Source: Gavia stellata
Taxonomy: Eukaryota; Chordata; Aves; Gaviiformes; Gaviidae
Direction: 5' to 3'
Assembly: GCF_030936135.1 (NCBI RefSeq)
Contig: NC_082632.1
Span: 419,661 to 483,660, forward strand
Length of the DNA stretch: 64,000 bases
This document shows positions 16,350 to 55,136 of the stretch, in pieces (position 1 is the stretch's first letter; the number at the start of each line of letters is the position of its first letter). A program made the translations under genes and the position numbers. The notes under the pieces are model-generated. The model saw only the letters and a list, made by a program, of their open reading frames with translations, was not told where the DNA came from and made no database searches.

Positions 16350-16422
16350 TGTTTCTGCCCGGTTTCGAACCGGGGACCTTTCGCGTGTGAGGCGAACGTG
16401 ATAACCACTACACTACAGAAAC
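16350..16422 (-). tRNA. tRNA-Val (CAC)
   Basis: A 73-nt minus-strand tRNA beginning GTTTCTGTAGTGTAGTGG, with anticodon CAC in CCTCACACG and the T-arm GGTTCGAAACC. The acceptor stem GTTTCTG pairs with CAGAAAC. It lies between the two Lys genes in the same orientation. Confidence 0.95.
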
Positions 16423-16585
16423 GCCGTGCGAAGCGGGCGGCCCCGCGGGGCTACGGCCCTTGCGGGTCCCTCCGGTGCGGCGGACACCGAGGGCCGGAGT
16501 CCCACCGGCGGCCCCGCGGCTCCGGCGGAGGAAGAGTCCGGTGGGGCAGCGAAAAGAGACGTAGGGAGGGTAAAAAAATAGGAGT

Positions 16586-16658
16586 CGCCCAACGTGGGGC
16601 TCGAACCCACGACCCTGAGATTAAGAGTCTCATGCTCTACCGACTGAGCTAGCCGGGC
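16586..16658 (-). tRNA. tRNA-Lys (CTT), second copy
   Basis: Same tRNA body as the gene at 16002-16074, with anticodon CTT. The flanks differ beyond a few bases, so the copy is either old with conserved body or arose by a short transfer. It lies at the upstream edge of the TRIM41 CpG island. Confidence 0.95.
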
Positions 16659-26091: not shown

Positions 26092-33760
<7,669 letters not shown>

Positions 33761-33765
33761 TAAGG

Positions 33766-35154
33766 GAATAAAGCAATTTTAAGTTCCTGCATGTTTAAAA
33801 ATCCTGGTGCATAAGAAAATTGCTTAGAAAATAGACACAGCTCGACAGGCACGAACAGGCCTCAGGGAAAATAATTTGGCTAGGTAGTCCCGGAGACAAA
33901 AAGCCGTCCGCCATTGATTTTTCATAGCCCTTCGAGCCTGGCGTCTTAATTTTCAGCCCAGACATTCCTAACTGGTGTCATTCAGAGTCCTCAGATGCCA
34001 AAGGCTGAAGGCGCTTCAGCTTTTCACGCCGAAGAAATCTCTCTGGCTGTGTTGCCCGGGTTGCCTTTGGGGGATTTGCTTATCAACGCCGACGAGCAAT
34101 TTAGGAGCCCATGTCAGGGTGCGACTGGTGAGTAACTTCTTCAAAATGTCTTGGAGGTGCTGCTGACCTTCCTGGACATACATCGTGTCATGCTGCACGG
34201 TTTCTCTCTTGGCAGAGCCCCCGGGAGCATGCCGGTTATTTTGTCTTCTCCAAATGCCAGATGTCTTCTGCCAAAAAAGAACTGGCATCTCCTTCGCCGC
34301 GATCCCCTTTTCCCTTGCTCAGGTTTCCCCGAGACAAGCACCTTCTGTTTCTTTACCCCGTGGCAATGTTTTTTCCTCTTGCAAATCCAGAGGATTTAGT
34401 CACCGGAGTTTGGTGCCAGCTCACAGGCTCTTGTCCTCAGCTTTAACCTTAACCCTCGCCCTCTCCCATCCTCGGCATCGCCTGCCCTTTTCACGGCTTG
34501 AAACCAGGCCTGCCCGTGGAGCAATGCCCCTTTTTTTCCAAGGGAGAACACTCCTATGATTCCCCTTCTAGTATCACCACAAGCCCCTTCTCCTTCAGCC
34601 CGTGGCCTTTGGGGTTTGGAGATCAAGGAGGCCCCTCTGAATTTCACGTGTTGTTCCCGTGTCCTTAAGTCCTTAATTTTCAGGCTTTGCAAAGGAAGCT
34701 GCCAGCTTGTGTGTCTTGCAGACAGAGCTGCCGGCAAAGATACCGCGTCCTGGGTTGAAGAACTGACATCTACTTCTCCGAGGCACTGAATGAGGTTTGG
34801 TTTTTTTGTTTCAGCCCATTTTCTCAGCGTTTCTGGGGTGGGAAACATCACTTGGCGAAAGCCAAGCCCAGAATGCTCCTTCCTAGTTAGACATCTGCCC
34901 CAGTCTGGGTCATAATGCTCTGGAAATGTCTCGTTTGTTAACTGTATTGAGAGTTTAGGCAGCTGACTCGGAGACATCTGAGACAGATCAGGTGAACAGC
35001 ATCATCAAAAACTATTTTCTCTCTGTTGACTACCAAAAAAAGCACCGGGAGACTAATTCAGGGAGAGATCAACAATTTTAGATGTCTTTCACTAACTTCA
35101 CGCTGCTTTAAGCCAGAGTTAACGGGTGAAAATTAGTTTTCTAGGGATATATCT
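33766..35154. other. Stretch between the minisatellite and the first heptad exon
   Basis: No Ig, signal-peptide or transmembrane exon found on the plus strand, although a butyrophilin would need one here. A 193-codon open frame lies on the minus strand at 34977-34396 (start MSPSQLPKLSIQLTNETF). I recognise no domain in it and consider it doubtful. Confidence 0.5.
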
Positions 35155-38100
35155 ATGGGAGTGGCCTATGTTTTAATGCTTATTTGTCTGGTTTCAGGAA
35201 AACTTGTTGCAGAGCTTTGTAAAAAAAATCCCCTCCAGCAGAAGAAAACAAATTTTCACTTTCAAATCTGTGTCTCGTCACTATGGGGGAAGTGGGAGAG
35301 CTGTGTGTCTTTGAAGCAAGCCGAGATATCAGGGGAGAGGCTAAGCTGGATGCATTTCATGAGCTGGCTTTTTTTTTTTTTAAAAATAATCCAAAGTGAT
35401 GAGAAATCCTGGCCACAGGAGGAGATTCACTCTCGCTTGGTCCTGGTGAGCAGCAGCAACAGACAGAAAGGAGAAAAGCACGAGCTTATTTCACATCTCT
35501 CTTTATTTTAGGGCAACGCAAACCAGAAATCGATGCCGTCCCCCTTTGGAGAGGGAAGATTTCTGTGCAAACAGGAGCTCCTCGGGGTCACCACGCATCC
35601 AAAATGCTGGGTGCTATCCACACCGCTGTCTATAGGCGCTGAGCCCGCAGGTCCTCGCTCGCAGACCGTGTCCTCTAAACAACCCGTGGGAGATGCCGGC
35701 ACCTCTGGAGGGTGGCCCGATGTCACCAGGTCAGGCCTCTGTTTCTATTCCTCCTCTGGAGGATCCTGTTCCTGCCATGACTATATCGGGATCTTCCAGC
35801 CCTCCCTTCCATCTCGGCATTTAAACCAGCTAAAATTAGGCGGTGGGAAGGTCCCCTCCCCGCTGCCAGCACAGCTGTCGTGCCCGTGACGGCTCTTCCA
35901 GCTCGGTGCAGACGCACAGAGCCTCCAGCGAGTCTGGGTACCTGCTTCCCGGGGCACCGTGGTCCCAGGACCTGCCAAAATCTCTAGCACGGACAACCCC
36001 CGCGTACGCAACCATCGCAGCCCGCGTGCCCCGGGAGCAAAAGGGCCCCAGTTAGGCCAATTTCGGCATTACGGAAAATCAGCTGCAGGTCTTGGTAAGT
36101 CTTTCCACAAGCGCCGGAGAGGCGGGGAAAGCATAATTTGTGGGTATCCTATTCCTGGATGCCGGTCTGGCTGCGTGGGCTCTTTCGTGAAAGGCTGGGA
36201 GATACATTTAGAAAGCAGAAGAAACGCGATACGTTCGGGATAGCTGGAAGAAGCCTAGAACAAAATGATCTTTTATTCCTGAACATAAACCTGACGATAC
36301 TGAAAAACAGGAAAAGGATTAAAAGAATGAATGGTATTAATTTTTTTTTTTTCCTTTCAGGAAAGTATTGTACAGAAATGATTGGTGCCGCTTTCCTTGT
36401 TCTGTTTGTCTTTTTCTGCACAAAACCTGCGTCCCTTCACCCAGCCTACACCATCTCCCATGGCAATCCAATCTTTTTTTTTTTTAATTAATAAAAAGAA
36501 TCAATTCAAAACATTAGCGTGGACTAGAAATCACCGCATACACAGTGAGGAGAAACAGAGCGGTAACACAGCAGAGGAGGGAAGCTCTAAGGGTAATATT
36601 CAGTTTAAAACAAGTGCTGCTTTTTGGGCCAAAAGAGATGGTAGCACCACATCCTCCACGTGTGGGGCTGGTTCTCCTGGTGTCAACAGCAGTGATAAGC
36701 GTTATTATTAAATAATTTGTGAAACACGGAGAGGAAATTAAGCTCGTGCTACTTCATCAACTAAAATTAGATGTTTAAGACTGAGCTATTTGCCCTGGAC
36801 CCCTTCTGCAATCCGTGGGGTGATAGACGTTGATGGAGGTTCATCACACCTGTAGTAGATCCCTCTTTCCTACCATCCATCCAGATGTAGCCCAGAAAAC
36901 ATCACAAATAACGAAGTCTAATAACCAGGAAAAAGCCTCGGCGACTCCATGGATTTCTCCTTTATTGTGTTTACTCACATGGGCAGAAATATCCCAGGCA
37001 TCAGCACGTCTTCCCAGAAAACGCGTTTTCCTCCACGCTGCACCGCTGTGAAGGCCTGGTTTTCCCTGGATGTGACTTAACGATGTTCCCTCTCGTCCCA
37101 GCAGGTTGACAGAGCTCTCGGAGGTGGTCCCGGTTAGGAAGCAAACGCGATGATGGAGTCAGGTACCTGAAAACGTACTTATTAACAAAGCGCGTGCCAC
37201 GTCCTGGCTGCTTTGGCACCCAAAACCCAGCTTTGCCGTGCCTGCGGGTGTTCAGTCCTTGCTCTGCTCGCTTTCGGGCTGCTTTTCCGATGTTTCCCTA
37301 AGCCGGCTTTTCTAGTCTGATGCTCTTCTTGGCTGTCCATGAGTTGTGCTCATTCAAGAAAGGAAGGTTAATGTTTAACTCCGGAGGGATGCAGCTAGGC
37401 TAGGGAGCCACTCCAGTTGTACCCAGTGCGAGAAACATTTACCTATCTTTATTTTTTTTTCCCTTTATTTCTTTTTTTTTAAGGGAAAAGGAATGCGGAT
37501 CTTGGTAAGTGATTTTTTTTTTCTCTCCTTCTTCCATCAAAACAAGTCTCGTTAACATACATCTCCTGTGGGCTTTTCTTGGCTCGATATTTGCACTATC
37601 ATATATTTTAGACCATGTTAGATAAACTCATAATGGTGTAATTTTGGGAACATTATGGTCAATAAGGGGAAAAAAGTCAGTACATAATCATTTTTAAGAC
37701 AACAACTATAGTGCAAACCAAAAAAACCACAGAAGGACCCACTGGGGGCTAAATTCTCTCTCTTTCTCTTTTAGAAGAATGGGATGCAAAAATCAGTAAG
37801 TGCCTTTTTTTTTTCCCCCTCCTTCCTCCTGATGGGAAAACCTTGGTGCTAAAGGCTTGAACTAATATTACTTCATTTTAAGGGAAGTTAACGGAAGAGT
37901 TCGGTAAGTCGTTTACCTTCCTTCCGCATGCCTACGTTTGAATGCGCGTGTTTTTGTAGCTGTAGCGTTAGCAATGACCGACGCGTCTATGTACATTTTC
38001 TCTTTATTTCCTTTAGAAGAAAGCGACACGGAACTCGGTGAGTGGGGTTTTGGGGTTGTGTGTGGGGGGCTTTTTGCTGCTTCTGAAGATGGAAAATGTT

Positions 38101-41100
38101 CCTTTGTATAGAGGATGGGCTTCTTAAACCAGAAATGATCCTCCAGATCTTAAATTTATACCCAGAGATAGTCAAGATGTGCAATTGAAGGAGAAGGGAC
38201 CCAAACCACTAGCGCAGCATCATCTATCCCTGTTACGCTAGGCATCTCGCTTTGGAGGAGACGCGCTGTCTCCCCGCAATCCAGCGGCATTCCCTAATCT
38301 CTTCTTCGGGCTCTTGCTCGCTCGTAGAAGCATGTCGGAGGCGGAGAGCTCTGAGGACTGACCCGTATTTATTTCTCTATTATTTTTTTAGAGGAGTGTG
38401 ACACAGAAAATGGTAAGTTTTATCCTTCGATTTACAAGTTCTTCTAAATAATAGTGGTCCTCAAAACCAAACAGCCTCAATCACACATTGCTGGAATAAA
38501 ATACTTTTTGCAATACATACTTTTACAATACAGACCTTTTATTTTTTAAGTAAATGCTTTTCTCTGTATTTGGGAATTCTTACTGCCGTGCTCGGCGAGT
38601 CGTATTCCTTCCGCAAAGGCGTGCTTTGGGCAGGGCTGCTGAGCGCAAGTTGCAGTTTATGCATGTTTCTTCATTCCAGCTTCAAAAAGCGCAGAAGTGG
38701 AATGGTCTTAAAAAATAAAACTAGTTGGAAATGCCTGTAATAAATAGAATAAGTCCAGATAGAACAGAGATTATTTTGCATCTCTAATGTTAAGAACAAA
38801 ATAAATATACGGAAGCGGTGAAAAATAACTTAAAGCCATTTCCCTTCTCTTTCTCTTTTTTTTGTTTTTGGGGGGAGGGACACGAAATGCAGAAATAGGT
38901 AAGTATCGCTTTCTTATCTTTGTCAAATTGATTCTGATCAGGAAACTTCTTGTTTCATGAACCCTGCATGAGTACCCGGGATGCCACGTACGTCCACGGT
39001 CCCGTCCGCTCTGGGGTCTGCCCTTGAGCCTGTGTGGTTATTTGAATGCCCAACCTGCAAATGACAGGCTCGAGGGCAGCCAGAGGACAGATTCGAGCCG
39101 TCCTTTAACATGCACCCCCCTTTATTTCTCTGTTTGAAGGCGAACTTACAGCAGAGATCGGTAAGTCACATCTTTACGTCCCATCCGATATATTTCCGTA
39201 TAGTTTTGAGTCATGTTTTAGCTGATTTGCCTGGGGTTTATTCCCTCTCTCTTGCCTGTTTTTAAAAAAGCAGGAGGAATATTCATTTTTAACAAGAACT
39301 CGTATTAAAAAAAAACCCAAACCCAACAGTACAGAAAACAGAGGGCTTGCGGGTTGCTGTGTCTGGGAAGGCAGTAATAAAGAGAATAAAGGGAATTTCT
39401 GAGCCAAGGCCACGTACGAACACGGTTGATGTGAAGCCCTGCGATGCAGGACAGCGCCTTGGGGGATTTGGGGCCGTTGAGATCCGGCACGTGCAAAGTG
39501 CAAGACTTCACCCCTCTCAACATACTTAAATTTTGCAAAAACTCCTCTCCCGGTTCCGATTGTCCCCTCTTTCGTGGTAGATGTTGCGAACAGGGGAGAT
39601 GTGTCAAGTGTTAGGTGCAGGATAGCTTTATTTTCCAAGCAAAGGAAGGTCCAAATGGGGTATGGCACGTCCCTGGCATCCTTGAGAAAACCGGTATTTA
39701 TTTTTCTCTTTTTTTTCTTTTTTCAGACAGTCTGACTGCGGAGCTTGGTAAGTGATTTCCTTCCTTTTTGTCTTTATTTCACCACAGGTTTTTCGGGGAA
39801 AGAGGTGGTTATTCCCTCCACACATACATAACCCCACATATGTCCAAGCTGGGCTAGAAATAAAGTCAATTAATTTTTTTAAAAAGTGTAATTTCAAATG
39901 ATAATCACCAGTAAAATCAAAATTTGGAGGCGGAGGGTGATGTGAGGTTGACGAGCATGACGGAGAGCTGGCGAGCGCTTATTGACCATCGATATTTCCT
40001 CTTTATTTTCTCTTTTAGCGGAACGTGATCGAAAAATCAGTAAGTGTCGTTTTCTGTAGAAATAAAAGCCTGGGGCGATGCCGGATCACCCCGAGGGCGC
40101 CTGTGTGTTTCGGATCCGGTTGTTAAATTATTTTTTGAATATGTGGGAGGTTTGGGGTTTGCACCAAGCTGCAGAATTTGGGCTTTTTGGCTACGTGTCG
40201 CCTCTCTGATCTGTCTCCAGTATAAAGGCAGCCCCGTTTTTTCCTTATTTCCATCAGCGCCGAAGGTGCAGGGACCGATTCTTTACCCATAATTTAAAGC
40301 TGTGGTCAGCAATCCCGTCCCTGTTCTTAATTACTGGCTCGTTGGTCTCATTAGCATCACCACGGCGCAGTTATATTATAATTTGGCCCTGGGGAACGTC
40401 AAAGGTGGCGCAAGCCGGGTTGTGATCGCGGAGAAATAAAGGACGGTTTCAAGCTAATATTCACTTATTTCTTTTGGTTTAAGGCAAGCTTACATCAGAC
40501 CTGGGTAAGGAGTTTTATTTCCTTAAAACTAAAATTATCCTTAATCATACAAAAGTGCTGGGTATAAAAAATTTTAAAAATAGAATATTTTGTGGGGGTT
40601 TTAAGAATGGGTGGCTTATAGGGGGATTTCTTCCTTAACAAACGTTATTTTTTAAAAAATATTATAGGAAAAGGTGTCCGTGGCATAAAATTTCCGTCAG
40701 GTTTGAGTTTTATGACAGAGCACCGCGGGAGGGGGTGGGTGCAGGAGGAGTCGCTTTGCGTTTCTCTGTATTTATCGATTATTTCTTGGTTTTTAGGCGA
40801 ATGCGATGCCAAAATCAGTAAGTGCGATCGCTCTCGGGGTGGGTGCCGAGGAGCCTACGTGCCTGCTATGCTATCTGTGAAAATGGGGGTGGAGGGGGGG
40901 TCTCCTGCTGGAAACCTGAGGATTTCTTTTTGGAGATTGAGGAGCACTCGTAACAGCGTAATTTCAAAGTATAATTATCAGTGTAAAGGCAATACTGGGG
41001 GGAAAAAAGCGCTATTCCTGTTCTAAGCGCTCTAGGGATGCTATAGACCCAATACACAGAAAAGAAGGAAATATTTAATAATAATTTTTCTGATTCTTTT

Positions 41101-44100
41101 CTTTTTCCTCCCCTCCTTTTTCTTTCCAGAGGAACGTGATCGAAAAATTAGTAAGTGTCATTCTTCATTGTGCTTTTGGGGTAAAACCCCCTTGTTTTGG
41201 GGAAGGGGGAACCCCTCCGATGCCCCGTCCGTGAAAAGTGGCAAAAAGAACATTTATTTCTGATTTCCCGAGTTTCAGCCCGGGCTTCTGCATTTCCCGC
41301 AGAGAAAAGAACACCCAAATAAATACAAATATTATTTTTTCTCTTTGCAGCCAAGCTCGCAGCAGAAATACGTAAGTCCTTTTCTTCCTTTTTGGAACAA
41401 AAATGATGGGTTTAGGCTTAGAAACCTCTTTTCTAGGGTCAATTTTTGTTGCTTTACTTGAACTAATACCTTTTTTTTTTTCTTCTTACTTCAAAGGTAG
41501 ACTCACTGCCCTGCTTGGTAAGTCTAATTTTTTGTACAGAACCTCCTGGGAGGATTATTTTAATTAAATCTTTGCGTGATTTGATGGAATTAGGTTGGAG
41601 GAACCTCTGGAGGGCTCGTGCCGAGGCGAGACCACGTTGCTCGGGGCCAACCTCAGCTGGACGACTCCAGTTTCTCCCCAGACGGAGTCGGGCGTTTCCC
41701 TTGTTCCGTACAAAAATGTCAGCTCCGCGTGCAGATTTTATGGGTTTTTTTAAATAAAATGGATAAAATTTCTCATTAAGATAATTAGGAAAATGCGCTT
41801 TGCACAGAAGGTCTTGGAGCTTTGGCTTCAGACCCTGTTGGCCTGGGGGAGAGGCAGTGCTGTGTGAAAAGAACCACAAAAAAAGGCTCAATTTTAGCCT
41901 TTCTCTTTCTTTTTCATCCAGGGGACCGAGACTCGAGGCTTCGTAAGTGACATTCTCCTCCTGGCGCGTAAAATCTTGGGCTAAAGGTGGATCTTCCTCA
42001 GCGGGCTGGTGTGTTTCCAAAAGTCCGTCTCTCCTCCCGGGAACCTCATTTTTCCTGCGGTTTTCTCATTTTTCCTGCATTTCTGAATCCAACCCCTCAT
42101 ACCGCTCCTAAACGGATGTATTGCCAGAATCAGTGGTTTTCCTCACTATCATTTTTTATTATTATTTAAATTTTTAATTTTATTTTTTTATACATATATA
42201 TTTTGGAATATATATTTTCGAATATATATAATTTTTTTAATACATACATATTTTATTGGGGGGTTGGGGATTTTTTAAATTATTTTTGGGGTATTTGGGA
42301 GGGATTTTTTTATTATTTTGGGGGGTTATTTGGGGGAATTTCTTTAGGAATTTTTTTATTATTTGGGGGTTTATTATTTTTTTAATTTTATTTTACTTTA
42401 TGTATCACATATCACTATTACACCACATTATATTTTATTGTCTTATTTTATACTATCAGGCTATACATTTTTATTATCTACTTTATACTATAATAGCTAT
42501 ACATTATGTATACATTATATATACATTGTATTATTTTCTAATACACTGTGTAAGCTTAAACCAGAGAATTATTTACACTCTGTCCAGAGAGGAGAGAGAA
42601 ACATCTATTTCAAATAAACTTGTATTTCTCTTTTTTTTTGTTCATTAGGGAAACTCACTGCAGAACTTGGTGAGTAATTTCCTTTCCAGTATTACGGGGA
42701 AAAGGGGGAAAGAGCAGCCAGAAAATGGATCAATATCTATTTTTCTTTATTTTTTTTTTTAGCAAAATGTGATGCAACAATTAGTAAGTGACATCTCCTC
42801 CTCGTATGCCTCGGGCTGGTTTGGGTGGTGTTCCAGCGTTGAAGGGATGCTGGAATTTCGTATATCAAAGAAAATCTGGGAGCCTGAGGCCGAAGTTCAG
42901 GGGGAAAAAGGAAAATCTAACGGGGGAGAACTCCCGTGGGAAGAGCCGAGATGGGTTTGACTCGTGTTGCGTGTGGGAAATCTAACGGGAACGGTTGTTA
43001 TTTTCTGTTTTAAGGAATATTTACGGTGGAGCTTGGTAAGTCCATTTCCTCCCTTTTTGCATTTTTTTAATTAAATTTTTAAAATTCTTAAATTGAAAAA
43101 AAATTAAATTACAAAAAAATTCTTACATTGCAAAAAACCTGATTAAATTGCATTTAGAAAAAAGCAATTGTAAAAACAAAACCCAAACTTATTTCTGCCT
43201 GTTTTCCCTGTGTTTCATCTACCTGGTGAAAAACAGCATCTTAGAGGGAGTAGTAGAGAAATTTAAAACCCCAAAATAATTGGAAACGGGGGTAGCGTGG
43301 GTAGGAACAGGAATCGTCTTGTATTCCAAATTATGTGAGCAGAGTTCGCGATGTAACGTGTGAAAGGCAGAAACCATGAGAAATAACATGTGGTTGTTTT
43401 CTCCCTTATTTTTAGGAGAGCGGCACACAAAAATAGGTGGGTTTTACGTTCCTCTGCCCGGCAAATCTCTGGATGAATTTCTCGGGAGGAAATCAGACTC
43501 GGAACTCATCGGCCATTGCCTGAGCATTTACAGGGAAAGAAAAAACCTTGCCTTAAAACTAACTTTATTTCTTTTCCCCTCTTTTTTTAGGTGAACTCAC
43601 TGCGGACGTCGGTAAGTGATTTTCCCATTCGTCTTGGTTTAGGTGGCAATGATACATGAAGATAAGCACTGAGCAATGTCATCATCCTTTCCTTCTGTGT
43701 ATTTTTAGGGGACTGCAATAGAGAGCTTCGTAAGTGTCTTTTTTTAATCGTGAGATTTAACCCTGAGAATTTTGTCATCTGTTACATACTCGAGAAAACA
43801 TCATGAAATTCCTGTTTTGTTTTGTTGTTGTTTTCTCTATTTCAAGGGAAACGTGCGGCAGAACTTGGTAAGGAATTTCCCTGCTTTGCTCAAAATGGTT
43901 TATTTTTTTTTTTTTTCAGTTTTCTCTGCATATCTGAAGTTTTTAAGGGGGTAATTCCTGTTTTAATCAAGTTTAGCAGATGCATGCGAAAGCTAAGATA
44001 GAATATATCCTATTATAATAGAGATTATACGATGATAGAGATTATACGTATAATATAATAAACATGCCACAAAATACAATTTCCAAGCAACGTTATAGAT

Positions 44101-47100
44101 AGAAAACCAGCCCCAGAATAAACCCTTGGCAGAGCTGGACTTCAAGGCTTATAGAACACAACTACGCGCTAATTTATTTTTATTTCTTTATCATTTTTAG
44201 AGGAACGGGACGTGAAAATCAGTGAGTATCACCCCGCTTTGCGAGCCACACGGCTGGGCTCGATGTTATCCCGGCAGCTCGTTTGCTATTTTTGTGGATG
44301 AGCTCATAGGCAACACGAGCATGTAACTACCCAGGAGGAAGGGAATAAATATAAAATATTGGCTGCAGAAAGCAACAACCAAATCTGCAGATGAAAAACC
44401 CGAGCGACAATCAGTATTTGCGCCTTTTTTTTTGCCAGATACAGCATTTTCTTTCCTCTCGTGAAAACCCATTTGGACACTTATTGCATCATATTTGAAT
44501 TTGTGGCGTTGCTCAAGCCTGGTTTTCACCGCAGATATTAATTTAGCCGAGGCTAGCTGCATTTTTAAGCAGAAGGCAGTGATGGTGGTGGAAAGAATAA
44601 AGTCATTTAAAGACCCAAAATATTGCACTGCTAATCTAGGGACACGACGTGAAGACAAAAGCGGTGGTTCCTTGTCATTTATTCCCTTTTTTTTTTTTTT
44701 TCTTTTAGGGGAAAATGAAGCAGAGATAAGTAAGTGTCATTTTCCATACTCCGTGGGCTGAGGGGGTCTCTTGCTTAACCCAAACGCTGGACGAGAGTCG
44801 GTTTAAAATCCAATAATCAGAATAGAAAAAGGGGTTTTTTTCCTGCGGAAATTCCCTCCGAAAGCCATACACAGGAATGAGAAAACCAAGAGTTTGTGGC
44901 TTGAATGGTCCAGGCTGTTTCAGTTCCTTGCTAAAGAGTAAAAGTGAATGGGAAGAGGGGGAAAAAAACCCCAAAATTATGATTTTTCCTGTGACTCGGT
45001 TGTGAGATGGCGTTGGGGCTGCACAGGGGACCCCGAATTTTGCCGCTGTCAAACTGGCTTCGGGGCTCAGCTGGGGGACGACCCCAGCAGGTCCCTGACC
45101 TTTTTTGTCTGTATTCTATATTAATAATATTTCTATTTCAGATGGTACATTTATGTGTTATGCTTTTATATTTTAAGTATGTATCATTTACATAGTATAA
45201 GCGTATAACTATAAATCATTTGTATATTATAAACATATAATTAAAACAACAATAATAACAATAATAATTTGTGTATTGTAAATATATAATTATAAATAGC
45301 ATAATATATATAATTCTGGCATTAGAAAGTTCTGCTTTGAGCTAATATGTCTTTCTTTGCTTCAAGGGCGCCTCACTGAGCTGCTCGGTAAGTGCATTTC
45401 CTTCCCCTCCCCATCAATAAATTCAGCGTACAGAGAGTGCAGGCGCTGCCCCGGCTGACTTGGTTGCACCGATGGCTTTTTGTATCCCTTTTAGCAGAAA
45501 TACTGCTATGCCAAAGGCAGCCAGAGTTATCAAAATGTAATTGGGGAAAAATAACAGCTAGGAAATACATAATTTTTACTCTTTTCCGTTTGCAGAGGAC
45601 CGGGATTCGGAAGTTCGTAAGTCTATTTGTGCGTCTCGGAGAAGTGAATCCTCCGTGGGAAGCGGGATCCCCTAAAATGAGTTGTGTTGGTGCTCACTTT
45701 CACCAAAGAAGTATGTTTGATTTATTCTTAATTCAAATATACACATGTATTTGGAGAAAATACTCCATAAAATACATCAGGTATTAGAGGAAAATATCCC
45801 GGAGATCTGATTCTCTGTCCCAAATTACTCTAAGAGTTTGTTCATTTTTTATTTGCACGGTTTGATCTCGGAGATTTTTTTTTTTTCTTGCCATTCCATG
45901 GAGCGATACGCATAAAATTTTGGAGTCCCCTCCCGGCAAGTGCCCTTGATGCAAAAATAAAAAGAGAAATATCCGTAGTTACGTGTGCGTAACCAGCGCT
46001 GTTTTGCCAAGCTCGGTGACTGTCTTCTGCAGAGCTTGTAATGTAGTAAAAACCTAAAATTGGAGAGAAACAGGAGTTATGAACTTCTTTTTTTCTCTTT
46101 TTTTGTTTATTTTTAGGAAAGCAGGATGCCGTCATTAGTAAGTGTCTTTTTCTGAGAAACGCAATCCCTGGGCTGCGTGGGGGTCACAAGCAGGGTGATG
46201 TTGCTGCTCCTGTTTTTGCTTAGTATTTTGGTCGAAATACCGTAAATTCATTGAATTAAGTTAAAACAAAAAATCTAATTAAGAGGCATAAAGTATCTGC
46301 CCATCTTAGAGGATTTGGGTACCTTGAGTTCCCCCGTCACGACCCTCTCGCGTCCTTGGGAAGGAGACGCACCGATTAGAACGAACTTTATTTTCTCCTT
46401 TTTAAGGAAAATTGGCGGAAGAGCTTGGTAAGCCAGTTTTATTCCTCTCACAAAACTGATTTGGGGTTCTTTGGGGGGTTTTGGGTTTCGTCTCGTGATT
46501 CGGGTTGGCTGGTTGTGTATGTTTTTGAGATAACTGTAGCAGATGGATAAAGGGCGAGTGCAGATGACTTTTAAAAATAAAATAGTAACAGTAACGCACA
46601 GAAAAAAATAGCAATGGAAGAGAAACGAGCTTCTATCCCGATACAAAACTCTGGGGTATGAAGGCAAATCTGTGCTCCACCTTTTTCTTTCGTCTCTTTT
46701 CTTTCTGTTAGAGGAATTACAGGATCGGGAAGGTGGTGAGTGCTATTTTCCTTCCCCTTTAAAAAATGTAGAAAGTTGAAGGGAGTTTGTAAGTATATAA
46801 AATATTATTCATATATGGGGCTGTGTATATATATTAAAAAATATCCGTGTGTGTACGTACAAATAAATATATATACACACGTATATTCCATGCTAGAGTC
46901 CAGACTAAAAATCTAATTTAATTATGGGACTGAAACAAAATCTGTGGGAGTCAGGATTATTTTTTTTAAAACACCTTCTAAGCGGTAGGACGTAAAACGC
47001 CGGGATGAAGGTGTGTTATCTGGGGCTGGTGGTGCAAACTCATTCTTCTCCTTCCTTTTGCAGGTGGATCTTCTGAGGAGCTTGGTAAATCTTTTTTCCT

Positions 47101-50100
47101 TTTAATTTGATAAAAAAGGGATGGATCAAGTTTTGTGGTATAAATCTTGTCGCGTGCCCGTTAGGTTGATGTGGCTGGATTTTTTTTCTGTTTTAAAAAA
47201 AATAAATGGTGCGTGTTTGTTATAAGTTGCAAACTCATTTCAAATCATAGTAACGAATGCAGATAATGTCTGGAAGGGGATGCCGCTAAAATGATAGAAG
47301 CTAAGAAGAATTCTGATTTTTTTTCTCTTTTTTTCCTCTTTTTTGTGTTCCCAGAGGAGAGTGATCTAGAAAGGGGTAAGCATCATCTTCCTTCCCGCCA
47401 AGGCTGAAAAACCCTTGATTTGAAGGAATGGCCCTTAATTAATTAATTCACATGATGAAAATTTTCAATTTTTCCTCTCTTAAGGCGAACTCGCCGAAGA
47501 ACTTGGTAAGTCGTTTCCTTCCTCTGCCAACAGCAAATACCCAACATTTATATTCAATGTTTTTGTTGAATTTGAGTTTGGTCAGAAGCTTTCTGGTCTG
47601 TTATCACCATAAATAAGTGAGGCAAACGTCAGCAAAGTTCAATACTGAAAATTTTAAAAAGCAGCCGAATTTTACGTCATCATCAGAAGCAGCTTTTTAC
47701 ATTTCTCCACAACTTCACTGTAAAAGTGGAGGAAATTTGGGTCTTCGAATAGTGAAGGAGATTGATAATAGTAGAGAAGGAGAAAGTATCTGGGGAATAG
47801 ACAGATTCTAATGGAAATCCATGTTTTTCTCTCTCGTAAGACGAAGTCACTGAAGAACTTGGTATGTGATTATTTTCTTCTTTTTCACCTTAACAAAAGC
47901 TTTTCTGAAGCTTTCTGAGTTTTCTTTGTTGCCCAGATATTAACTTTAACATAACAAGAAATAGAGGCTTGGGTAGAGGGAAATGCGAGCCAACAGCAAA
48001 TGAGATTTCAAATAACAAATTACTAATAAGGCAGCGGTGTTTGGGGAAAAGTCCTGTCTCTGATACAACATCAACAGATACTTTTACATTATTTTAATCT
48101 TGGTTTTCTCCCTTGGTTTTAGGGGAACGTGATAAAAAAAGAGGTGAGTTTTGTTCTCATTTCCCAGGTCCTTTCAGGCACGTTTGGGTGCTCTGGGTGG
48201 GTTCGGCGCGGAGGGATGCTGGCTGTGTAATCCCAATCCCCGGAATCGCCGAGGGAGCTGCTTTTCCACCCCTAAATACCAAGTTTGTTTGAATATTGGG
48301 AGAGTTCATGAGATTTCTGTTGAGATCTTGTATTCTTTCAGCCCTCCCGAGGTACCAATTGAGCAAAGAAATCCTAATTATTTCATTCATTTCCTTCCTT
48401 TTAAGAGGAAATCGCTGAAGAGCTCGGTAAGTCTTTTCTCCTTCCTTCCTCCCATGCTTTTTCCTCCCTCTTACTCTTTTACATTGTTTTGAGTCTTGTG
48501 TTTTCTTTTTTGTCTCAGTTCAGAAAAAAAAAAATCATGGGTAAAGTAAAAATAATAATAATAACCATAACCAACAATGTTGCGGGGAAATTGTCAAGGT
48601 GCAGTTTGTAGGTGATGCAAAACCACGAAAAATTATGGGGGGCATTTTTAAGGTTTGTTTTTTCCTTTCTTTCCCCTTTTTCAGCGGAACAGACCGCACG
48701 GATCGGTAAGCCTTGTTATCTCCACGAGCCTTCTGCCTTTAATAGGAGGGGAGGGCACGTGTGGGTGCAAATATTGCTCTGAAACAGTTGTCTTTTCCTG
48801 TAATATGAGCTGAAACGACTGTTCAAAAACTTCACATCCGTTGGATGCTACTTGTTTGCTTCCCTCTGTTCTCCCTGGGCAGCCCAAATGCCCTTCTGTC
48901 TTACGTTTGGGATTATAAGGAGATATTTTGGGTTGGTTTTCTGTTGCCGAGTGCTCCCTTCAATTCAGTGTTGCTTAATTCTACTGAGAGCAATTAAAAT
49001 TAAAAATCCGTAAACGTGTTCTTCAAGAGGAACATAGAATCCCCCAGTGAACCATTTAGTGCGTATCTGTAGGGAAAAAAATATGCATCGTTAAAACCAG
49101 TTTTCCTTTCGTTCTTTCTAGGTGAACTCACTACAGAGCTGGGTAAGTCCTTTAAAAAAACAAGAATCAAATTTCTGGAAGTATCTTGTTTATATTTAGT
49201 TTGGGGTTTGGTAGGAGCAAGTCATGATCTTTGCTTTAAGATGAGGAAAGTCAGTTGGGGATGGGTTAATCTATATAAAATCAGAAGCAAAATGCAAATT
49301 ACAATTATAGTTCTCTATACGGGACAGAAAAATATCAGATTTATCTCCAGTTGACGAACACACACAGCGAAGGGGAGAGTACTTAGGAATAACTTTTTTT
49401 TCCCCCGTTTCCTTTCTATTCTTCCTTATTTAGGAGAACGCGATACCAAAATCGGTACGTGTCCATCCCCTTCCCGAATCCCATGGAACGCGGTGCATGG
49501 AATCATGACTTTTCTTTCAATTATAATAATGATAATACTGAAAAACCAGTATTTTTTTTCTCTTTTAAGATGAACTGTCTGCAGAAATCGGTGAGTGTTT
49601 TTTCTCTGCCGTCCAACAAAACAAATATACGCAGTTTCTGATCTGTATTTTGGTATTATTTTTTATATAAAGGAAAAAATAGATTACAAAAACTTTGATT
49701 TTTTTATTTTTCTTGTTTTCCTTTATTTAGAAAAACGCGATAGAAGAATTGGTGAGTATCAGACTTCTTCCCGAGACATGAACTGTGGGTGTTTGTAAGA
49801 TCCGTATGATCGCCTTGGCGTGAATCGTAATGGAAATCCTTTCTTTTTTTCTCTCTTTTCAGATGAACTCACTGCAGAGCTTGGTAAGTCACTTTGATTG
49901 CAGGAAAGAAAGATACACAAGTCTATGTTTGTCTCCTGTATTTTTTTTTTTTTAATTTCTTATGCCTTTTTCTGAGCTACTTTGGGGAATTTTGTGGAAA
50001 CCTGGGCTAACGGGGATAAAGTCAAAAGATGCATATGCATTAGAATTATAGTTATATGTATAATTATTATATATTTTATATACAATTATAATTGTGATGC

Positions 50101-51722
50101 ATGCAATCTAAGATAATTATAAAAATATATAATGGTTTTGTAATTATCTATGACTATATTGCATATAGTAATAGATTATTAATACAGTTATAATCAAACA
50201 ATAATAATCACTAGGCGCAGAAATATATTTTTGCTTTGGGAGCCACGAAAGTCTTAGAAAGTCATAGCACAAAAAGGAAGAGAAATGTGCAAATAACTGT
50301 TTCTATCGCTTCTCTTTTCAGAGGAATACAAAGCAAAAATGCGTGAGTGTCCTTTTCCTCGCCTTCTGGAGCAGCAAAAGATGCGTGAGGTTTTGGGGGC
50401 ATTTTGCAATAGGTGAGATTTTTGTATTGGTAACCGCGGTGGGCCTCAGCGCCGCAGAAATTGCCCACGGAAGGTGAAAATACGGGTCATGGCTTTCTGG
50501 AGCGCCCACGCACCTTCCTCCCTCCACAAACTGGAGAAGCGATGCCCTCTAATTGTAGCAGAAATTCCTGGTATGACCTATTACAGCTTTTTTTTTTTTT
50601 TCTGTGCGGTGACTTCTGCCTGTTAGTTTAAAGCAGCTGTATTTTTTTTTTTCCTGAGGTTTAATCTAAATGGCAAGTCATGTTACAGACACAAGTATCA
50701 ATGAGGCCTCATTTCACAACAATTTGGGGGGGGGGAGCACTTTTTTAGGGGAAGGAGGGGAATAAAAAATTAGCATGAACTGGAGGCATCTTTGGAATAA
50801 AAAACCCCTCATTAAAACTACTTTTTTTTTCTTTTCTTTTAAGGAAAATGCATTGAAGAGCACAGTAAGTGCATTTTTCTCCCTTCTACAAATACCTGTT
50901 TGGCTTTTGGGTTTAAGTTTACGTCACTGTTAATAACTTATCTTTTATTGTACATTTTTAGGGAAAGAGGAAGAAAAAATGGGTAAGTAATTTAGAGAAA
51001 GATGAAGAAAAAATGGGTAAGTAATTTGGTACTCTGGTTTGCTGAAAGGTGTCACGTGTATGCGTAGGGAAAGTCGCACGAATTATCGAGCCTTGAACTA
51101 CGGAAAGACAAAACGCCCTATTAGATTTCCAAGAAGACACCGGTCCCTGGACAAAAGGCAGGTTAAATAAGTTTAATTCTCTTTCTCACCCTCTTCTTCC
51201 TCTTCCACAGCAAACGTGACGCTGGACCCAGAGACAGCCCACCCCCGCCTCATCCTCTCCAAGGATCAGAAGAGTGTGAGATGGGAATACATGCTGCAGG
51301 AGTCTCCTGACAGCCCCGAGCGGTTTGATGCCGATCCTTGCGTGCTGGGTTGCGAAGCCTTCACCTCCGGGAGACACTACTGGGTGGTGGATCTGGCAGA
51401 GGGACAGTACTGCGCCGTTGGGGTCAGCAAAGAGTCTCTGCAGAGGAAGGGACCCATCAACTTTAATCCCGAGGAAGGGATCTGGGCAGTGCAGCAATGG
51501 GGATTTAAGAACCGCGCCCTCACCTCCCCTCCAACCCTCCTTAACCTGCCGCGGGTCCCCAGAAAGATCCGCATCTCTCTAGACTACGAATGGGGAGAGG
51601 TGGCGTTTTTTGACGTCGAGAACAAAATACCGATCTTCACTTTTCCTCCGGCTTCCTTCGCTGGGGAGCGGATCCGGCCGTGGTTCTGGGTGGAGTTGGG
51701 CTCGCTCTCTCTGGTCCGATGA
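35155..51722 (+). CDS. BTNL-D: butyrophilin-like coiled-coil protein, 45 heptad micro-exons plus B30.2
   Basis: A string of 21-bp exons, all AG/GT bounded and in phase 1, ends in a B30.2 exon at 51211-51722. Exon starts: 35198, 37484, 37775, 37883, 38017, 38392, 38878, 39140, 39727, 40019, 40484, 40797, 41130, 41351, 41497, 41922, 42649, 42763, 43015, 43416, 43591, 43709, 43847, 44201, 44709, 45367, 45596, 46117, 46407, 46712, 47064, 47355, 47485, 47841, 48123, 48406, 48685, 49122, 49434, 49570, 49731, 49863, 50322, 50844, 50962. Each adds one heptad (EERDRKI, GKLTAEL, GELTAEI), giving about 315 residues of charged helix, most likely a coiled coil. The B30.2 exon reads ANVTLDPETAHPRLILSKD to LSLVR. 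Such tails are known from BG and butyrophilin genes, which carry Ig domains; none is visible here. An ATG at 35155 with a hydrophobic lead into the 35198 heptad gives 499 codons in frame; this start is a guess. Confidence 0.8.
35512..35532 (+). pseudogene. Relic heptad exon without a donor
   Basis: TTTATTTTAG precedes 21 bases reading GQRKPEI in the array's phase, a good match to GTRNAEI at 38878. The next bases are ATGCCG, so the GT donor is lost. Confidence 0.5.
36074..36094 (+). pseudogene. Relic heptad exon without an acceptor
   Basis: Twenty-one bases reading GKSAAGL are followed by a perfect donor (GTAAGTC). The acceptor position is ACG instead of AAG. It resembles GKLTAEL. Confidence 0.45.
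36361..36384 (+). other. Possible 24-bp heptad-type exon
   Basis: A strong acceptor (TTTTTTTTCCTTTCAG) precedes 24 bases reading GKYCTEMI in the array phase. The following GTGCCG is a weak donor. It may be a used, an alternative or a dead exon. Confidence 0.35.
38680..38700 (+). pseudogene. Relic heptad exon without a donor, between heptads 5 and 6
   Basis: TTTCTTCATTCCAG precedes 21 bases reading ASKSAEV in phase. The donor position is AATGG, not GT. Confidence 0.45.
42170..42560. repeat. AT-rich low-complexity stretch inside the array
   Basis: Runs of TATA, TTTTAT and TTGGGG-type words separate heptads 15 and 16 and account for the largest intron of the array's middle part. No coding signal is visible. 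Confidence 0.75.
44535..44555 (+). pseudogene. Possible relic heptad exon with a GC in place of the GT donor
   Basis: GGTTTTCACCGCAG precedes 21 bases reading (D/N)INLAEA in phase, followed by GCTGCA. A GC donor needs a strong consensus around it, which is absent. Confidence 0.3.
50962..51016 (+). repeat. Fresh 34-bp duplication of a heptad exon and its donor
   Basis: The last heptad exon (50962-50982, GKEEEKM) is followed by 13 bases, GTAAGTAATTTAG, then a second 21-bp copy (50996-51016, EKDEEKM) with its own GTAAGTAATTT. Thirteen bases are too short to be an intron, and reading through meets TAA. The copies can only be used one at a time. Confidence 0.85.
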
Positions 51723-54700
51723 CCCTTGCGTTCCTCCTTGTGCAGAGAGCTCAGCGCCGGCGGTGAGCGGGTGGCCTGAGGGGCAGGAGGAGTGGTGGAA
51801 GCACCTTACTCCATCCAGACACCGACAGCTAGGTGGTTAAGAGCAGCAGGATAGAGACCAGGATAGAAATGCTCTTGGGAAGAGCAGCGTCAAACCTCAG
51901 TTTCCCCCATTCCCAGTCGAGTGCTCCAACTGTCATCGTGCAAAGGAAAGGCAGCCCATCCTGCATGTCCTCAACATAAGGTGGCAGAAGGTCTGGCCAG
52001 CCTCAGCCCTTGGCCCAATGTCTCATAGTTGTAGTTCCAGCACACAGGAACACCAAGTGACCCGCAGAGAGATGTAGGCTCCTCCTTCAGTTGATGGAAA
52101 GAGGTGGGCAGCAGGGTAAGTCACTGTTCACACTGCCTGCATCACCCGAGTGGGAGTCCGGGCTCCCACCAGCATTTTCTTCTCGTTGGTTGGTGGTTGA
52201 CGTGTAGATTTCAACCGTTTGAGCCGCTTTTATAGTAGGCAGAGGGAAATAAGCACTTCTGGTGGGCAACTCATCTCATCTAGACATAGACATCGAAACA
52301 GGACAGGCAAATCGTGCTTTCCGTGTGCTTATCTCTCTTGGTCAACTGTTGAAGGACTCTCTTCATCAACTGTTGAAGACGTCTACACTTGGAAGAGATT
52401 AAACAACTCGCCTTTGCCCAACCTGCATACAAATTCAGGCTCTTGGCCCTTGGCCAGAGAAAGGACGTGGCAAACCCTCCGCGCTCATCCTCAGAGCTCC
52501 AAGGCACCTGGTCAAGGCTGTCAGCTTCATGCACCAACACCTCCACGGGTTTCTTCCCCAAATGCTCCGGCCACTGTGCTGCTGGTCAAGGCATTGCTGC
52601 TGTAATCCTTTATACCAGAGCTGGACGCAGCCATGTCCTCCGGCAGGACTAAATTTGACTCTAAACCTGGCCTGGGCAGATGATCTTATTCCAGCTGGGT
52701 TAGCCAGAGCCCGTGAGTTTAGCTCAGCCTTTGGGAGAAGAGAGAAGCTGGGATTCAAGACCAAGCTGGCATGATGCCCTCAGGTGAAAATCGGGGTGCC
52801 AAACATCCAGACCACATGGATGAACGCTTTGAAGAGGCTCAGCCAGCATGGAGCTCTGCATCGTGTTGCCATAAAGCTTCCAGTAAGGTACTGGGAGCTC
52901 TAAAAATAGATTCATGGAGGGGGTCAAGCCAGTGCTTGAGATCAGCATGGGGCCAGCCGTCCGTGAAGGCAGGCGATTAGGGACGCCACCGAAGCTGCTA
53001 GAGGGGATGGACACCATGGTCTTCACCTTTCACGACATCTCACTGCACTTTGGTAGCACTGATGAATTCCTCGTTAATCCCTGCTTGTTCTTAGCCACCT
53101 GTAAAGCCATAAATCTTGTCTCTTGTCCCACCATGGGATGGCCAACTGGTAGTTCCCGTCTGACAATAAACCACTTGAGACTCTCCAGAGCATTTGGTTT
53201 CTTTTCCCAGCCAGTTCGACGTAGAGCCCCCCTGGCCCTCTCAGGTGATGCCTGCAGCCCCTACGCTCTCCCCTCGCAGCATCTTGCTCCGCTTACCCCC
53301 CTAAACATGGGGGGCATTTGAGGTGGATCCCACTGTGTGATCCCGTTAGGGAGGGATGCTCTCATCTCCCACCCACGAGCAACGGCTGGAGCGTCTCAGG
53401 GGCTCAGTCCTGCGGTCTTGAGTTTTTCTTTCGGCAGTTCATCAGGCCAGAAACCTTCGTTATTGCCCTTGCAACCCACATTGTGGTGGCACCGGGGCAG
53501 GGTAGGCAGGAGAAGACCCAAACAGGGGGAAGAGGGAGGGGAGGGACAGACTATTCGTGTCTGAGGGCTTCAAGATGCTCGTGTGTTGGCTAAGGAAGTA
53601 CGCTTGCTGTAGCAGCTCAAAATACCATTCCTTCGACAGAAGGAAATTTCGCAGACAGAAGCAGACAGAAATTTGGGGGGAAATAGATAATAATATGCAA
53701 TAATTAAAAAAAAAATCCTCTTTTCTGAGTAACTATCAATATGGGAAACACCACAGAGGAGAAACTGCCCTTCCTCCGCCCTGGAAATCACCACGAGCGA
53801 CTTTGAAGCGCGAGTTTATAAAGCTGCGTTTGCTATAATTAAAACATTGCAATCCGGAAGGTGTTCCTGTGCTGCTTGTAACCCATGAAGGAGGCTGGAC
53901 ACAAGAGCTGGGCAGCTTTTTCGTCTTTATTTAAAGCAGCTGGATGACCACTGTACTTATTTTTTGCCCTGGTGACGGCCAAGGCGGGTGGTGAGCCCGC
54001 AGGAGGTGGCTGTGCTTGGATGGTCGCTGCCTTGCATGGTGGCAGATGCCCCATCTTGCCCAACGGCCAAAGATCTTTTATCCTACAGCTGAAAATGATG
54101 AGGTATTTCCAATCCAAGCTTTATCTTGGTTTGAAAAATCCAAGTTGGGGACGCTGATCCGCAGATGGACGTAACTGAGCTTCTCCTTGGCAGGGAGTCA
54201 TCGGGCAGCGCATTCCTCTCCGTGTTTCCTTAAATAGGGCTGATACTTTCCCTCTGTCCTCCATGTGATCTGACTCCGAGCCTTGTGGCTGGAGAAGAGC
54301 CCCGTGGACTAAATCACCCCACGCTTAAAAAAAAAAATTCTTCAAAGACCTTGTTCTGCTGCCTAACGGGTAAGTGTCTCTTTTTGGGATGGTTGGGGAT
54401 GTCCCGGCAAGGGGAACCGGCAGCGTCCCAGCCACCCTGGCACCGCTGAGATGTTTTTCCAAGTGTAAAGATGAAGGGCTGTTAAATTTGGGGTTGCTGT
54501 GGTCTGTCCGTACAGTGCGAGCTGTCAAGGCGAGGGGGTCATGTTGCTGAGCCTGTTTCGGGCACCCTTTCAGGCTCTGCATTGGCTGCGTAGATAAATG
54601 AAAATTGGTTCCAAGTAAAAGGAAAGCAGCAAGAAGACATAAAAACTGCTTTCCACCACGGTTTCTGAGCACGCGTGTACCATCGGAGGGTTTCTGCATT

Positions 54701-55136
54701 GGCAAGTGCACCCCAAGGCTTCGGGCCATGCTTTGAAGGGTGGGGAGCGGACACGGGGGGACACCAGGTCGTGTACCAGCAAGGGAGGTTAGATCCTGAG
54801 CTTTGGGGACGAAATGACAGCTCCCACCAGGAGGGAAGAAGGTTGGCTCCTTCTCCTCTGGCTGTCCCAGGAGTGGAGACGCCAACCTGAGATGTCAATG
54901 CCCATGGTGCAGGCTTGCACGTAGGCGAGAGAAACCTCAATGCCCGAGAGCTGGACGTTAAAGTCCAAGCCTTGCTAGAAGGCAATTCATCCCTTCCTAA
55001 AATTAACGTCTAAAAGAGATTAAAGCTTCCCTCTGCTGCTCCTCCTTCCTCTACCCATGCTGAGACCTTTTATTTGTTCACTCCGCTGCAGGCAGCAAGG
55101 CGACGAGGAAGAAGAGAGGCTGGAGAAGCTGCTGCC
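51723..55136. other. Spacer between BTNL-D and TRIM-E
   Basis: I recognise no gene. An AATAAA at 53165-53170 on the plus strand could end a long 3' UTR of BTNL-D. Open frames in both directions are short and unlike known domains. Confidence 0.5.

Follow-up and report, generated by a model that had tools for sequence, protein, structure and literature searches.

The window, a stretch of 64,000 nt from the genome of the loon Gavia stellata, contains a gene of heptad micro-exons with a terminal B30.2 exon, adjoining the immune gene (MHC) cluster. A small coding start exon, 43 supported exons of 21 bp and an exon for a PRY-SPRY (B30.2) head make up its coding part, and no Ig domain, transmembrane segment or RING is encoded in the product. 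The gene is single-copy in the loon and is kept across birds, from rhea to passerines. The product is probably a cytosolic coiled-coil rod with SPRY heads, a scaffold derived from a butyrophilin, with some heptads skipped between isoforms. The features are listed below; all numbered heptads were found by the scan and have orthologue counterparts unless stated otherwise.

29976..30175, +, presumed 5' UTR exon at a CpG-rich promoter facing RACK1, donor GTGAGT, 5' end uncertain
37150..37162, +, start exon, coding part, MMESG, phase 1, in-frame stop at 37135
37484..37504, +, heptad 1
37775..37795, +, heptad 2, NAGNAG acceptor
37883..37903, +, heptad 3
38017..38037, +, heptad 4, NAGNAG acceptor
38392..38412, +, heptad 5
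38878..38898, +, candidate heptad 6, probably unused, counterpart in 0/17 orthologues
39140..39160, +, heptad 7, missing in one quail model
39727..39747, +, heptad 8, missing in one guineafowl model
40019..40039, +, heptad 9
40484..40504, +, heptad 10
40797..40817, +, heptad 11
41130..41150, +, heptad 12, conserved block begins
41351..41371, +, heptad 13
41497..41517, +, heptad 14
41922..41942, +, heptad 15
42649..42669, +, heptad 16
42763..42783, +, heptad 17
43015..43035, +, heptad 18
43416..43436, +, heptad 19
43591..43611, +, heptad 20, conserved block ends
43709..43729, +, heptad 21
43847..43867, +, heptad 22
44201..44221, +, heptad 23
44709..44729, +, heptad 24
45367..45387, +, heptad 25, missing in one guineafowl and one quail model
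45596..45616, +, heptad 26
46117..46137, +, heptad 27
46407..46427, +, heptad 28
46712..46732, +, heptad 29
47064..47084, +, heptad 30
47355..47375, +, heptad 31, missing in some gull models
47485..47505, +, heptad 32, counterpart in 8/17 orthologues
47841..47861, +, heptad 33, missing in some gull models, counterpart in 5/17 orthologues
48123..48143, +, heptad 34, counterpart in 8/17 orthologues
48406..48426, +, heptad 35
48685..48705, +, heptad 36, first in public Gavia model P0001
49122..49142, +, heptad 37
49434..49454, +, heptad 38, counterpart missing in Gallus P0143, present in P0142
49570..49590, +, heptad 39, missing in one gull model
49731..49751, +, heptad 40
49863..49883, +, heptad 41
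50322..50342, +, heptad 42
50844..50864, +, heptad 43
50962..50982, +, heptad 44
50996..51016, +, duplicate (34 bp) of heptad 44, at best an alternative to it
51211..51722, +, PRY-SPRY (B30.2) exon with stop (Pfam: PRY 5.7e-22, SPRY 1e-15)
53165..53170, +, possible polyadenylation signal AATAAA

Micro-exons were sought in the region 35000-51210 with a pattern of acceptor, 21 nt and donor. The scan gave 45 matches, of which that at 39731 is a register shift of 39727, leaving 44 candidate exons (37484-50982). With identical thresholds, the window's first 35 kb yielded five matches and the reverse strand of the region four, and 200 dinucleotide shuffles gave a mean of 2.25 matches (sd 1.44, maximum 6) against the 44 candidates. 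All 44 are 21 bp long and in phase 1, and the joined frame has no stop, against 7 and 29 in the other two frames. The introns measure 87-706 bp (median 270). Pairwise identity is 0.47 among the micro-exons and near chance among the introns; the exons have therefore been held since old duplications. The heptad array is real. For exon 38878 (heptad 6) none of the 17 orthologues offers a counterpart, and its acceptor scores lowest of the 44; 43 heptads are therefore supported. An earlier note on this DNA had proposed 45 stop-free heptad exons in one phase; array, phase and frame stand, with the count reduced to 44 candidates and 43 supported exons. The duplicate at 50996-51016 is hardly spliced in addition to heptad 44, because it lies 13 nt behind exon 50962 and has a poor acceptor (-6.7).

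The coding start ATGATGGAGTCAG at 37150-37162 (+) reads MMESG in phase 1 and is preceded by an in-frame TAG at 37135, 12 nt before the start codon. Of 19 aligned orthologue models, 14 have the same M(M)xxG immediately ahead of heptad 1, and in four of these 14 the model starts further upstream. This start exon was missed in the earlier note, which let the array begin at 35198. The sequence 35198-35218 was rejected as first heptad: its donor is weak (0.5), it lies upstream of the start codon, and in orthologues keeping the M(M)xxG start the KRNADL-type heptad 1 has no other heptad before it. Degenerate heptad-like pieces occur at 35198, 36074 and 36361. Transcription probably starts at the CpG-rich promoter (CpG o/e 0.99 at 30000-30249), and translation starts in the small MMESG exon. 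The 5' UTR exon as read in the loon has a donor score of 9.2 and resembles the leaders of pigeon, hoatzin, pelican and flamingo models.

The B30.2 exon has an uninterrupted frame up to its own stop and an acceptor score of 14.5, in agreement with the intact closing exon reported earlier. Like butyrophilins, the product carries a PRY-SPRY domain (Pfam) preceded by heptad micro-exons. By score the nearest solved B30.2 is that of TRIM10, slightly above BTN2A2; in the B30.2 tree an 11-row avian clade is supported at 100/100, and BTN and TRIM descent of the head are not separated. In a falcon orthologue, the match to solved structures runs on for about 40 residues within the juxtamembrane coil of BTN3A1/BTN2A1 at full length. 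The lack of an Ig exon, also noted earlier, was borne out: tblastn over the window found exons like the Ig, signal-peptide and membrane exons of the neighbouring butyrophilin only in that downstream gene (best other match E=0.28), and Pfam found no IgV or IgC in the loon product and three orthologues. The 19-residue hydropathy maximum is 0.75, against 2.44 in the neighbour's membrane segment used as control, and does not indicate a transmembrane segment. RING and B-box were not found by Pfam in the loon product, P0121, P0142 or P0144; as a control, both were found in TRIM41 and in two TRIM-type genes of the window. Of the features that define BG (single IgV, transmembrane segment, long heptad tail, no B30.2), only the heptads are present.

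Counterparts of 43 of the 44 heptads occur in 5 to 17 of 17 bird orthologues, where a counterpart has at least five of seven aligned letters, a definition that takes in a few non-homologous model ends (e.g. P0124). Identity ranges from 0.65 to 0.91 in the stalk and from 0.69 to 0.99 in the B30.2 domain; the passerines P0158 and P0159 (stalk 0.59 and 0.51, B30.2 0.58) were left out of the counterpart count. Many of the models are automatic predictions, some with retained introns. Eight orthologues, each with 33-42 heptads, were compared by position: the corresponding loon heptad was the unique best match in 16-33 cases and tied best in 4-15. Judged from these alignments, each heptad keeps its own identity across birds, and heptads 12-20 reach an identity of 0.90-0.97 at every one of the seven positions, those on the surface among them. 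The loon gene shares start, heptad order and B30.2 clade with this orthologue group. Annotated models within gull, guineafowl and quail differ by 1-2 whole heptads, some with a retained-intron insert as well. The earlier proposal that any subset of exons may be skipped thus holds insofar as whole heptads can drop without frame loss; given their individual identities, interchangeability of any subset is not supported.

Spliced joining of heptads to B30.2, as the earlier note expected, is supported in a near-chicken orthologue: P0142, 426 aa long, comes from a contig no longer than 1963 nt and therefore derives from spliced RNA or a retrocopy. It differs from the Gallus model P0143 by three substitutions, one heptad and the first Met. 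P0143 and the chicken entry A5HUK7 (P0155, 312 aa) are orthologues of the loon gene and, from position, would be BTN1 of the galliform maps. In the loon the first coding exon of RACK1, identified by a match to solved RACK1, lies upstream in the opposite direction, and the gene order in the Mikado pheasant MHC is TRIM41-GNB2L1-BTN1-BTN2-BG1 (PMC5941149). This shared place beside RACK1/GNB2L1 suggests that the loon gene is the BTN1 locus. Among the genes quoted, the partial BTN1 of black grouse was the one with the highest 454 coverage (34.6); one of its 14 exons was verified, and the reads show a 3' bias (PMC3500228). BTN1 of Mikado pheasant and that of chicken are given as 57% identical with a dN/dS of 0.84, termed comparatively high (PMC5941149), which speaks against strong constraint in galliforms unless short, differing exon models account for it. 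The public Gavia model P0001 contains 9 of the 43 heptads, beginning with heptad 36 (48685). This conserved avian gene seems to have received wrong models and wrong names (BTN, TRIM, RFP, golgin) owing to the scatter of its coding sequence across some 43 micro-exons.

By the scan, the four classic butyrophilins read in tandem downstream contain, besides one distinct 21-nt unit, similar heptad exons numbering 24, 16, 10 and 9; they have B30.2 domains of their own. Their tails consist mostly of ERDKAL/ERNAAL/EQAAAL-type repeats, unlike the stalk; these heptad exons are young and vary in number. Young variable arrays and a fixed stalk provide a built-in contrast between neighbouring genes. TRIM-type genes lie on both flanks, and the coil exons of the downstream TRIM-like neighbour, read by eye, are larger than 21 nt.

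The stalk of 43 unbroken heptads (301 residues) contains no proline. Position a (codon 7) is hydrophobic in 39 of 44 heptads and position d (codon 3) in 25 of 44, with frequent Arg or Cys at d. Modelled as an in-register parallel homodimer, 3 of 42 g-e' pairs are attractive and 13 repulsive, which together with Arg/Cys at d speaks against a simple homodimer of parallel helices; the poor pairing may point to a heteromer or to a different arrangement. One continuous helix would measure 301 x 0.1485 nm = 44.7 nm, close to the 45 nm given earlier, when about 315 residues had been counted. From its heptad pattern the stalk should form an oligomeric coiled coil of up to about 45 nm. Neither acidic nor charged residues show a tropomyosin-type period (p=0.41 and 0.92 at 39.3 residues, p=0.89 and 0.47 at 19.67 residues).

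The gene most likely descends from a butyrophilin that gained further copies of its juxtamembrane heptad exons and lost those for the signal peptide, the Ig domains and the membrane segment. The 43 phase-1 micro-exons would encode a coiled coil and the last exon its head; the rod would oligomerise and show its SPRY heads to a conserved intracellular ligand, the fixed central face (heptads 12-20) binding itself or a partner. Annotated isoforms differ by whole heptads skipped at scattered points along the stalk, and such skipping may shorten the rod. A split butyrophilin, in which the heptads putatively pair with BG/BTN surface tails and B30.2 is given in trans, above all to chicken BG, is less likely: the 21-nt exon unit is in common, as is the chromosomal neighbourhood in galliforms, weak g-e' pairing leaves room for a heteromer, and whether orphan B30.2 domains bind BG tails is a question posed in a review (PMC8813856). 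The loon, however, retains the gene beside butyrophilins with B30.2 of their own, and their tails are unlike the stalk. The wider idea that avian butyrophilin function is split, surface BG/BTN heptad tails signalling and the rod docking by putative coiled-coil pairing to bring B30.2, with its reach set by heptad splicing, is more doubtful still.

A TRIM-like factor without RING, serving as SPRY receptor or decoy, oligomerising like TRIM and unable to ubiquitinate, is improbable. Many public names of orthologues are TRIM10/15/39/7-like, and nearest solved head and flanking genes are of TRIM type, but RING and B-box are absent from all four products scanned and the 21-nt stalk exons are those of BG/BTN, not the larger coil exons of the neighbour. 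Restriction factors are also fast-evolving, whereas this B30.2 is well conserved. Tropomyosin has about the length of 43 unbroken heptads, and a cytoskeletal rod would have a precedent in the zipper protein of chicken, a BG tail for which action on actin-myosin and displacement of tropomyosin are reported (PMC4046983, PMC5938342); with the tropomyosin-type period missing, this is quite improbable. It is very improbable that a complete butyrophilin was overlooked, its Ig and membrane exons missed or added by alternative splicing, as the locus name BTN1 and the splicing variation of BG genes (PMC5938342) might suggest: such matches, including the signal peptide, fall in the downstream gene, RACK1 points away upstream, and M(M)xxG stands right before heptad 1 in most aligned orthologue models, preceded in the loon by an in-frame stop. 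Decay of a butyrophilin, to which the degenerate pieces, unsupported exon 38878 and the high printed galliform dN/dS (PMC5941149) might point, is scarcely credible unless expression was lost in the loon alone: reading frame and splice sites are complete across all 43 exons, the gene is kept in birds as far apart as rhea and passerines, and there is expression evidence in galliforms. If the architecture of the SPRY scaffold holds at the protein level, a butyrophilin derivative has turned cytosolic; as the orphan B30.2 partner of BG tails raised in the review it would be an obvious candidate, and its gene would offer a natural test of splicing across dozens of consecutive 21-nt exons.

Among known systems, TRIM proteins share coiled coil, B30.2 and many database names; the loon product differs in lacking RING and B-box and in the construction of its stalk. 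The zipper protein of chicken is likewise a soluble heptad protein without Ig (PMC4046983, PMC5938342), but it is the tail of a BG protein, and BG molecules as described carry no B30.2. Chicken BG has the long heptad tail of 21-nt exons, with 13-36 in one haplotype (PMC4046983) and 37 in another line (PMC5938342); it differs by one IgV and a transmembrane segment, by the absence of B30.2 and by tails variable within and between haplotypes. The galliform BTN1 locus agrees in position and strand beside GNB2L1/RACK1; in Mikado pheasant it is given as an 8-exon butyrophilin of 309 aa (PMC5941149), in black grouse as one with 14 exons (partial; PMC3500228), and neither a 43-heptad array nor missing Ig/membrane parts are described for it in the available text of these papers. 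Variation in heptad number is also reported for squamate butyrophilins (PMC12841164). Butyrophilins, including the loon tandem neighbours, likewise place a B30.2 exon after phase-1 heptad exons of 21 nt; their IgV, IgC and transmembrane parts set them apart from the gene described here, which lacks surface parts and has 43 individually conserved heptads.

The window was scanned for AG + 21 nt + GT units with simple acceptor and donor scores taken from frequency tables. The + strand yielded 58 such units and the - strand 10. Region 35000-51210 contains 45 of these, of which one is a register shift, leaving 44 exons; at equal thresholds no other exon length between 15 and 39 exceeded 10 units there, and 200 dinucleotide shuffles gave a mean of 2.25 and a maximum of 6. 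The earlier note had proposed about 45 consecutive 21-bp exons followed by a B30.2 exon. The array stands against the shuffles, and the count becomes 44. Exon 35198, which had been included, has a poor splice site, lies 5' of the start and is removed from the gene. Pieces 36074 and 36361 were also rejected, being without a good donor or acceptor and likewise 5' of the start. The 44 exons read without a stop when joined in phase 1, and the remaining frames contain 7 and 29. The introns between them are 87-706 bp long (median 270).

The start was placed by comparison with 19 orthologues chosen for alignment, 14 of which have M(M)xxG immediately 5' of heptad 1; four of these 14 models begin further upstream. 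The loon sequence at 37150-37162 is ATGATGGAGTCAG followed by GT, which encodes MMESG in the correct phase, and an in-frame TAG at 37135 precedes it. A start at an ATG in the RACK1-facing exon, spliced in phase 1, was dropped since orthologues have the M(M)xxG start. The hydrophobic stretches read at 35149-35164, 36653, 37231-37240 and 36363 were by judgement not accepted as signal peptides, since a polypyrimidine tract gives a hydrophobic reading. The pigeon, hoatzin, pelican and flamingo models have leaders that resemble a reading of the loon sequence between 29976 and the donor at 30175, within a CpG-rich stretch facing RACK1; in the loon this reading hits a stop and is therefore taken as 5' UTR. 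Directly 3' of the RACK1-facing exon, a G-rich 50-bp unit is repeated about 72 times in 30201-33750, an array that would fall in the presumed intron 1. Each unit has several G runs, and G-quadruplexes are possible.

Counterparts of the heptads, defined by at least 5 of 7 aligned letters, were counted in 17 orthologues, excluding the two passerine sequences P0158 and P0159. They were found for 43 of the 44 loon heptads, each in 5-17 of the 17; exon 38878 has a counterpart in none of the 17. The predicted loon protein would thus have 475 residues: MMES, 43 heptads and B30.2.

The B30.2 exon matches the public Gavia stellata model P0001 at 100% identity; this model holds 9 heptads, and its start reads as intron sequence. 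The next best of 42 B30.2 matches in the loon genome is 59% identical. A search with the joined protein, capped at 8000 candidates, listed the best 120 of 329 matches, among which full or partial orthologues came from shag, duck, falcon, hawk, gull, gannet, hoatzin, kagu, guineafowl, chicken, quail, rhea, pelican, parrot, pigeon, cuckoo and passerines; their database names include TRIM10-, TRIM15- and TRIM39-like, RFP-like and golgin-like. The stalk core alone (residues 56-185) matched 43 of 7851 candidates, made up of 41 named bird entries, the near-chicken orthologue P0142 and one metagenome protein (33% identity). Within this search by shared words and a length window, the specific stalk is known from birds only.

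The neighbourhood of the gene contains the following features (C39, contig holding the window; L015-L018, downstream loci of the loon genome G000).

1-279 (C39:419464-419939), - strand: B30.2 match in two overlapping pieces, possibly a pseudogene
4041-12697, - strand: TRIM-type genes with RING and B-box exons in 4.0-4.6 kb and 12.0-12.7 kb and a B30.2 within 6.3-7.0 kb
14227-15840: tandem array, 43-bp unit, about 38 copies, 382-bp higher-order period
16001-16658, - strand: tRNA-Lys, tRNA-Val and tRNA-Lys beside TRIM41
55098-58136: coiled-coil and B30.2 gene, exons by eye, PRY-SPRY by Pfam
60412-64000 and G000:C39:479661-522999 (L015-L018), + strand: tandem classic butyrophilins (IgV, IgC, TM, heptads, B30.2)

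Further + strand B30.2 matches continue to C39:579698. In galliform MHC maps BTN1 lies between GNB2L1 and BTN2 (PMC5941149), and by position the loon locus is this BTN1. The gene at 55098-58136, in which three scanned stretches gave no RING, B-box or Ig family, occupies the place of galliform BTN2. A review of the chicken MHC gives two tRNA-Lys and one tRNA-Val, and assigns a pair of B30.2 genes (B30.1 and B30.2) to the galliform BTN1 sub-region (PMC4988538); our guess is that these are BTN1 and BTN2. The stalk and the missing Ig and membrane parts are undescribed in the accessible parts of the literature searched; the original chicken reports (Shiina 2007, Ruby 2005) may say more.

P0142 is a 426-aa orthologue, complete at both ends, on a contig no longer than 1963 nt with 71 member sequences and the source label lgn. 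Three substitutions, the first Met and one heptad (EEHDARI) set it apart from the Gallus model P0143. Start and stop codon of the loon gene lie 14.6 kb apart, and a length of 14,220 bp is given for chicken BTN1 (PMC8414643), so the contig derives from spliced RNA or a retrocopy. Black grouse BTN1 (partial, 1 of 14 exons verified) has a coverage of 34.6, the highest among the genes quoted, with a 3' bias (PMC3500228). The gene is real, conserved in birds and expressed in galliforms; its architecture is well supported, and we infer its mechanism. Whole heptads are present in some annotated models and absent from others in gull (EESDLER, DKVTEEL, DELSAEV), guineafowl (ERLTAEL and one further) and quail (GELAAEI and one further), and some of the models carry a retained-intron insert. 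In the gull models heptads 2 and 4 vary by one residue, which fits NAGNAG acceptors that the loon also has.

Codon 7 encodes a hydrophobic residue in 39 of the 44 heptads and codon 3 in 25, which fits positions a and d. The 301 stalk residues contain no proline, and their rise would be 44.7 nm, in agreement with the rod of about 45 nm suggested previously. For an in-register parallel homodimer, 3 of 42 g-e' pairs would be attractive and 13 repulsive, which speaks against this simplest dimer. The stalk showed no tropomyosin-like period; tests of 10 periods by two measures gave p 0.015-0.048 at 14 and 21 residues, not claimed as signal. The Pfam ATG16 coil model matches residues 114-197 of the joined loon product with 58.5 bits (cut-off 33.7) and three orthologues with 37.8-38.4 bits; this may be a coiled-coil look-alike.

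The gene is a variant of the butyrophilin kind, yet its domain set is not that of a butyrophilin. Descent from a butyrophilin and from a TRIM gene were considered. A falcon orthologue's match to full-length BTN3A1 and BTN2A1 extends about 40 residues into the juxtamembrane coil, and in two turtle butyrophilins that have Ig and TM, 7 and 9 related heptads (GKLTEEV, GKRDLEI etc.) precede B30.2. In the B30.2 tree the 11 orthologue rows form a single clade (100/100), and the tree gives no choice between BTN and TRIM ancestry. With the tree neutral, the coil match and turtle heptads make a butyrophilin that lost its surface exons the likeliest origin, still unproven.

Among themselves the heptad exons show 0.47 identity (0.28 expected), and intron flanks are near the identity expected from base composition, indicating old exon duplications after which introns drifted to saturation, with exons and splice sites kept. 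Identity is 0.90-0.97 at each position of heptads 12-20, those on the surface too, and heptads 29-36 are the loosest across orthologues. In eight orthologues compared with the loon, the mean match is 0.68-0.92 for heptads at the same position versus 0.22-0.26 at other positions, so the stalk is not a set of interchangeable spacers. No clear higher-order repeat of heptads was seen in 12 lags (lag 4, p=0.052). The values printed for Mikado pheasant BTN1, 57.26% amino-acid identity to chicken and a dN/dS of 0.8357, among the comparatively high values (PMC5941149), speak against strong constraint in galliforms. As galliform sequences align to the loon with 0.77-0.84 identity in the stalk and 0.86-0.87 in B30.2, differing short exon models are suspected behind what is printed.

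The four downstream butyrophilins read as 24, 16, 10 and 9 heptad exons in the scan, each series followed by one distinct 21-nt unit, and the IgV of the other three is 95.7-99.1% identical to that of the first. Their heptad exons (0.75-0.79 identical) and introns (0.51-0.59) are still alike, whereas the introns of the studied gene are saturated. Compared with BG tails, for which 13-36 (PMC4046983) and 37 (PMC5938342) heptad exons are published in these sources, the studied gene is longer, with 43.
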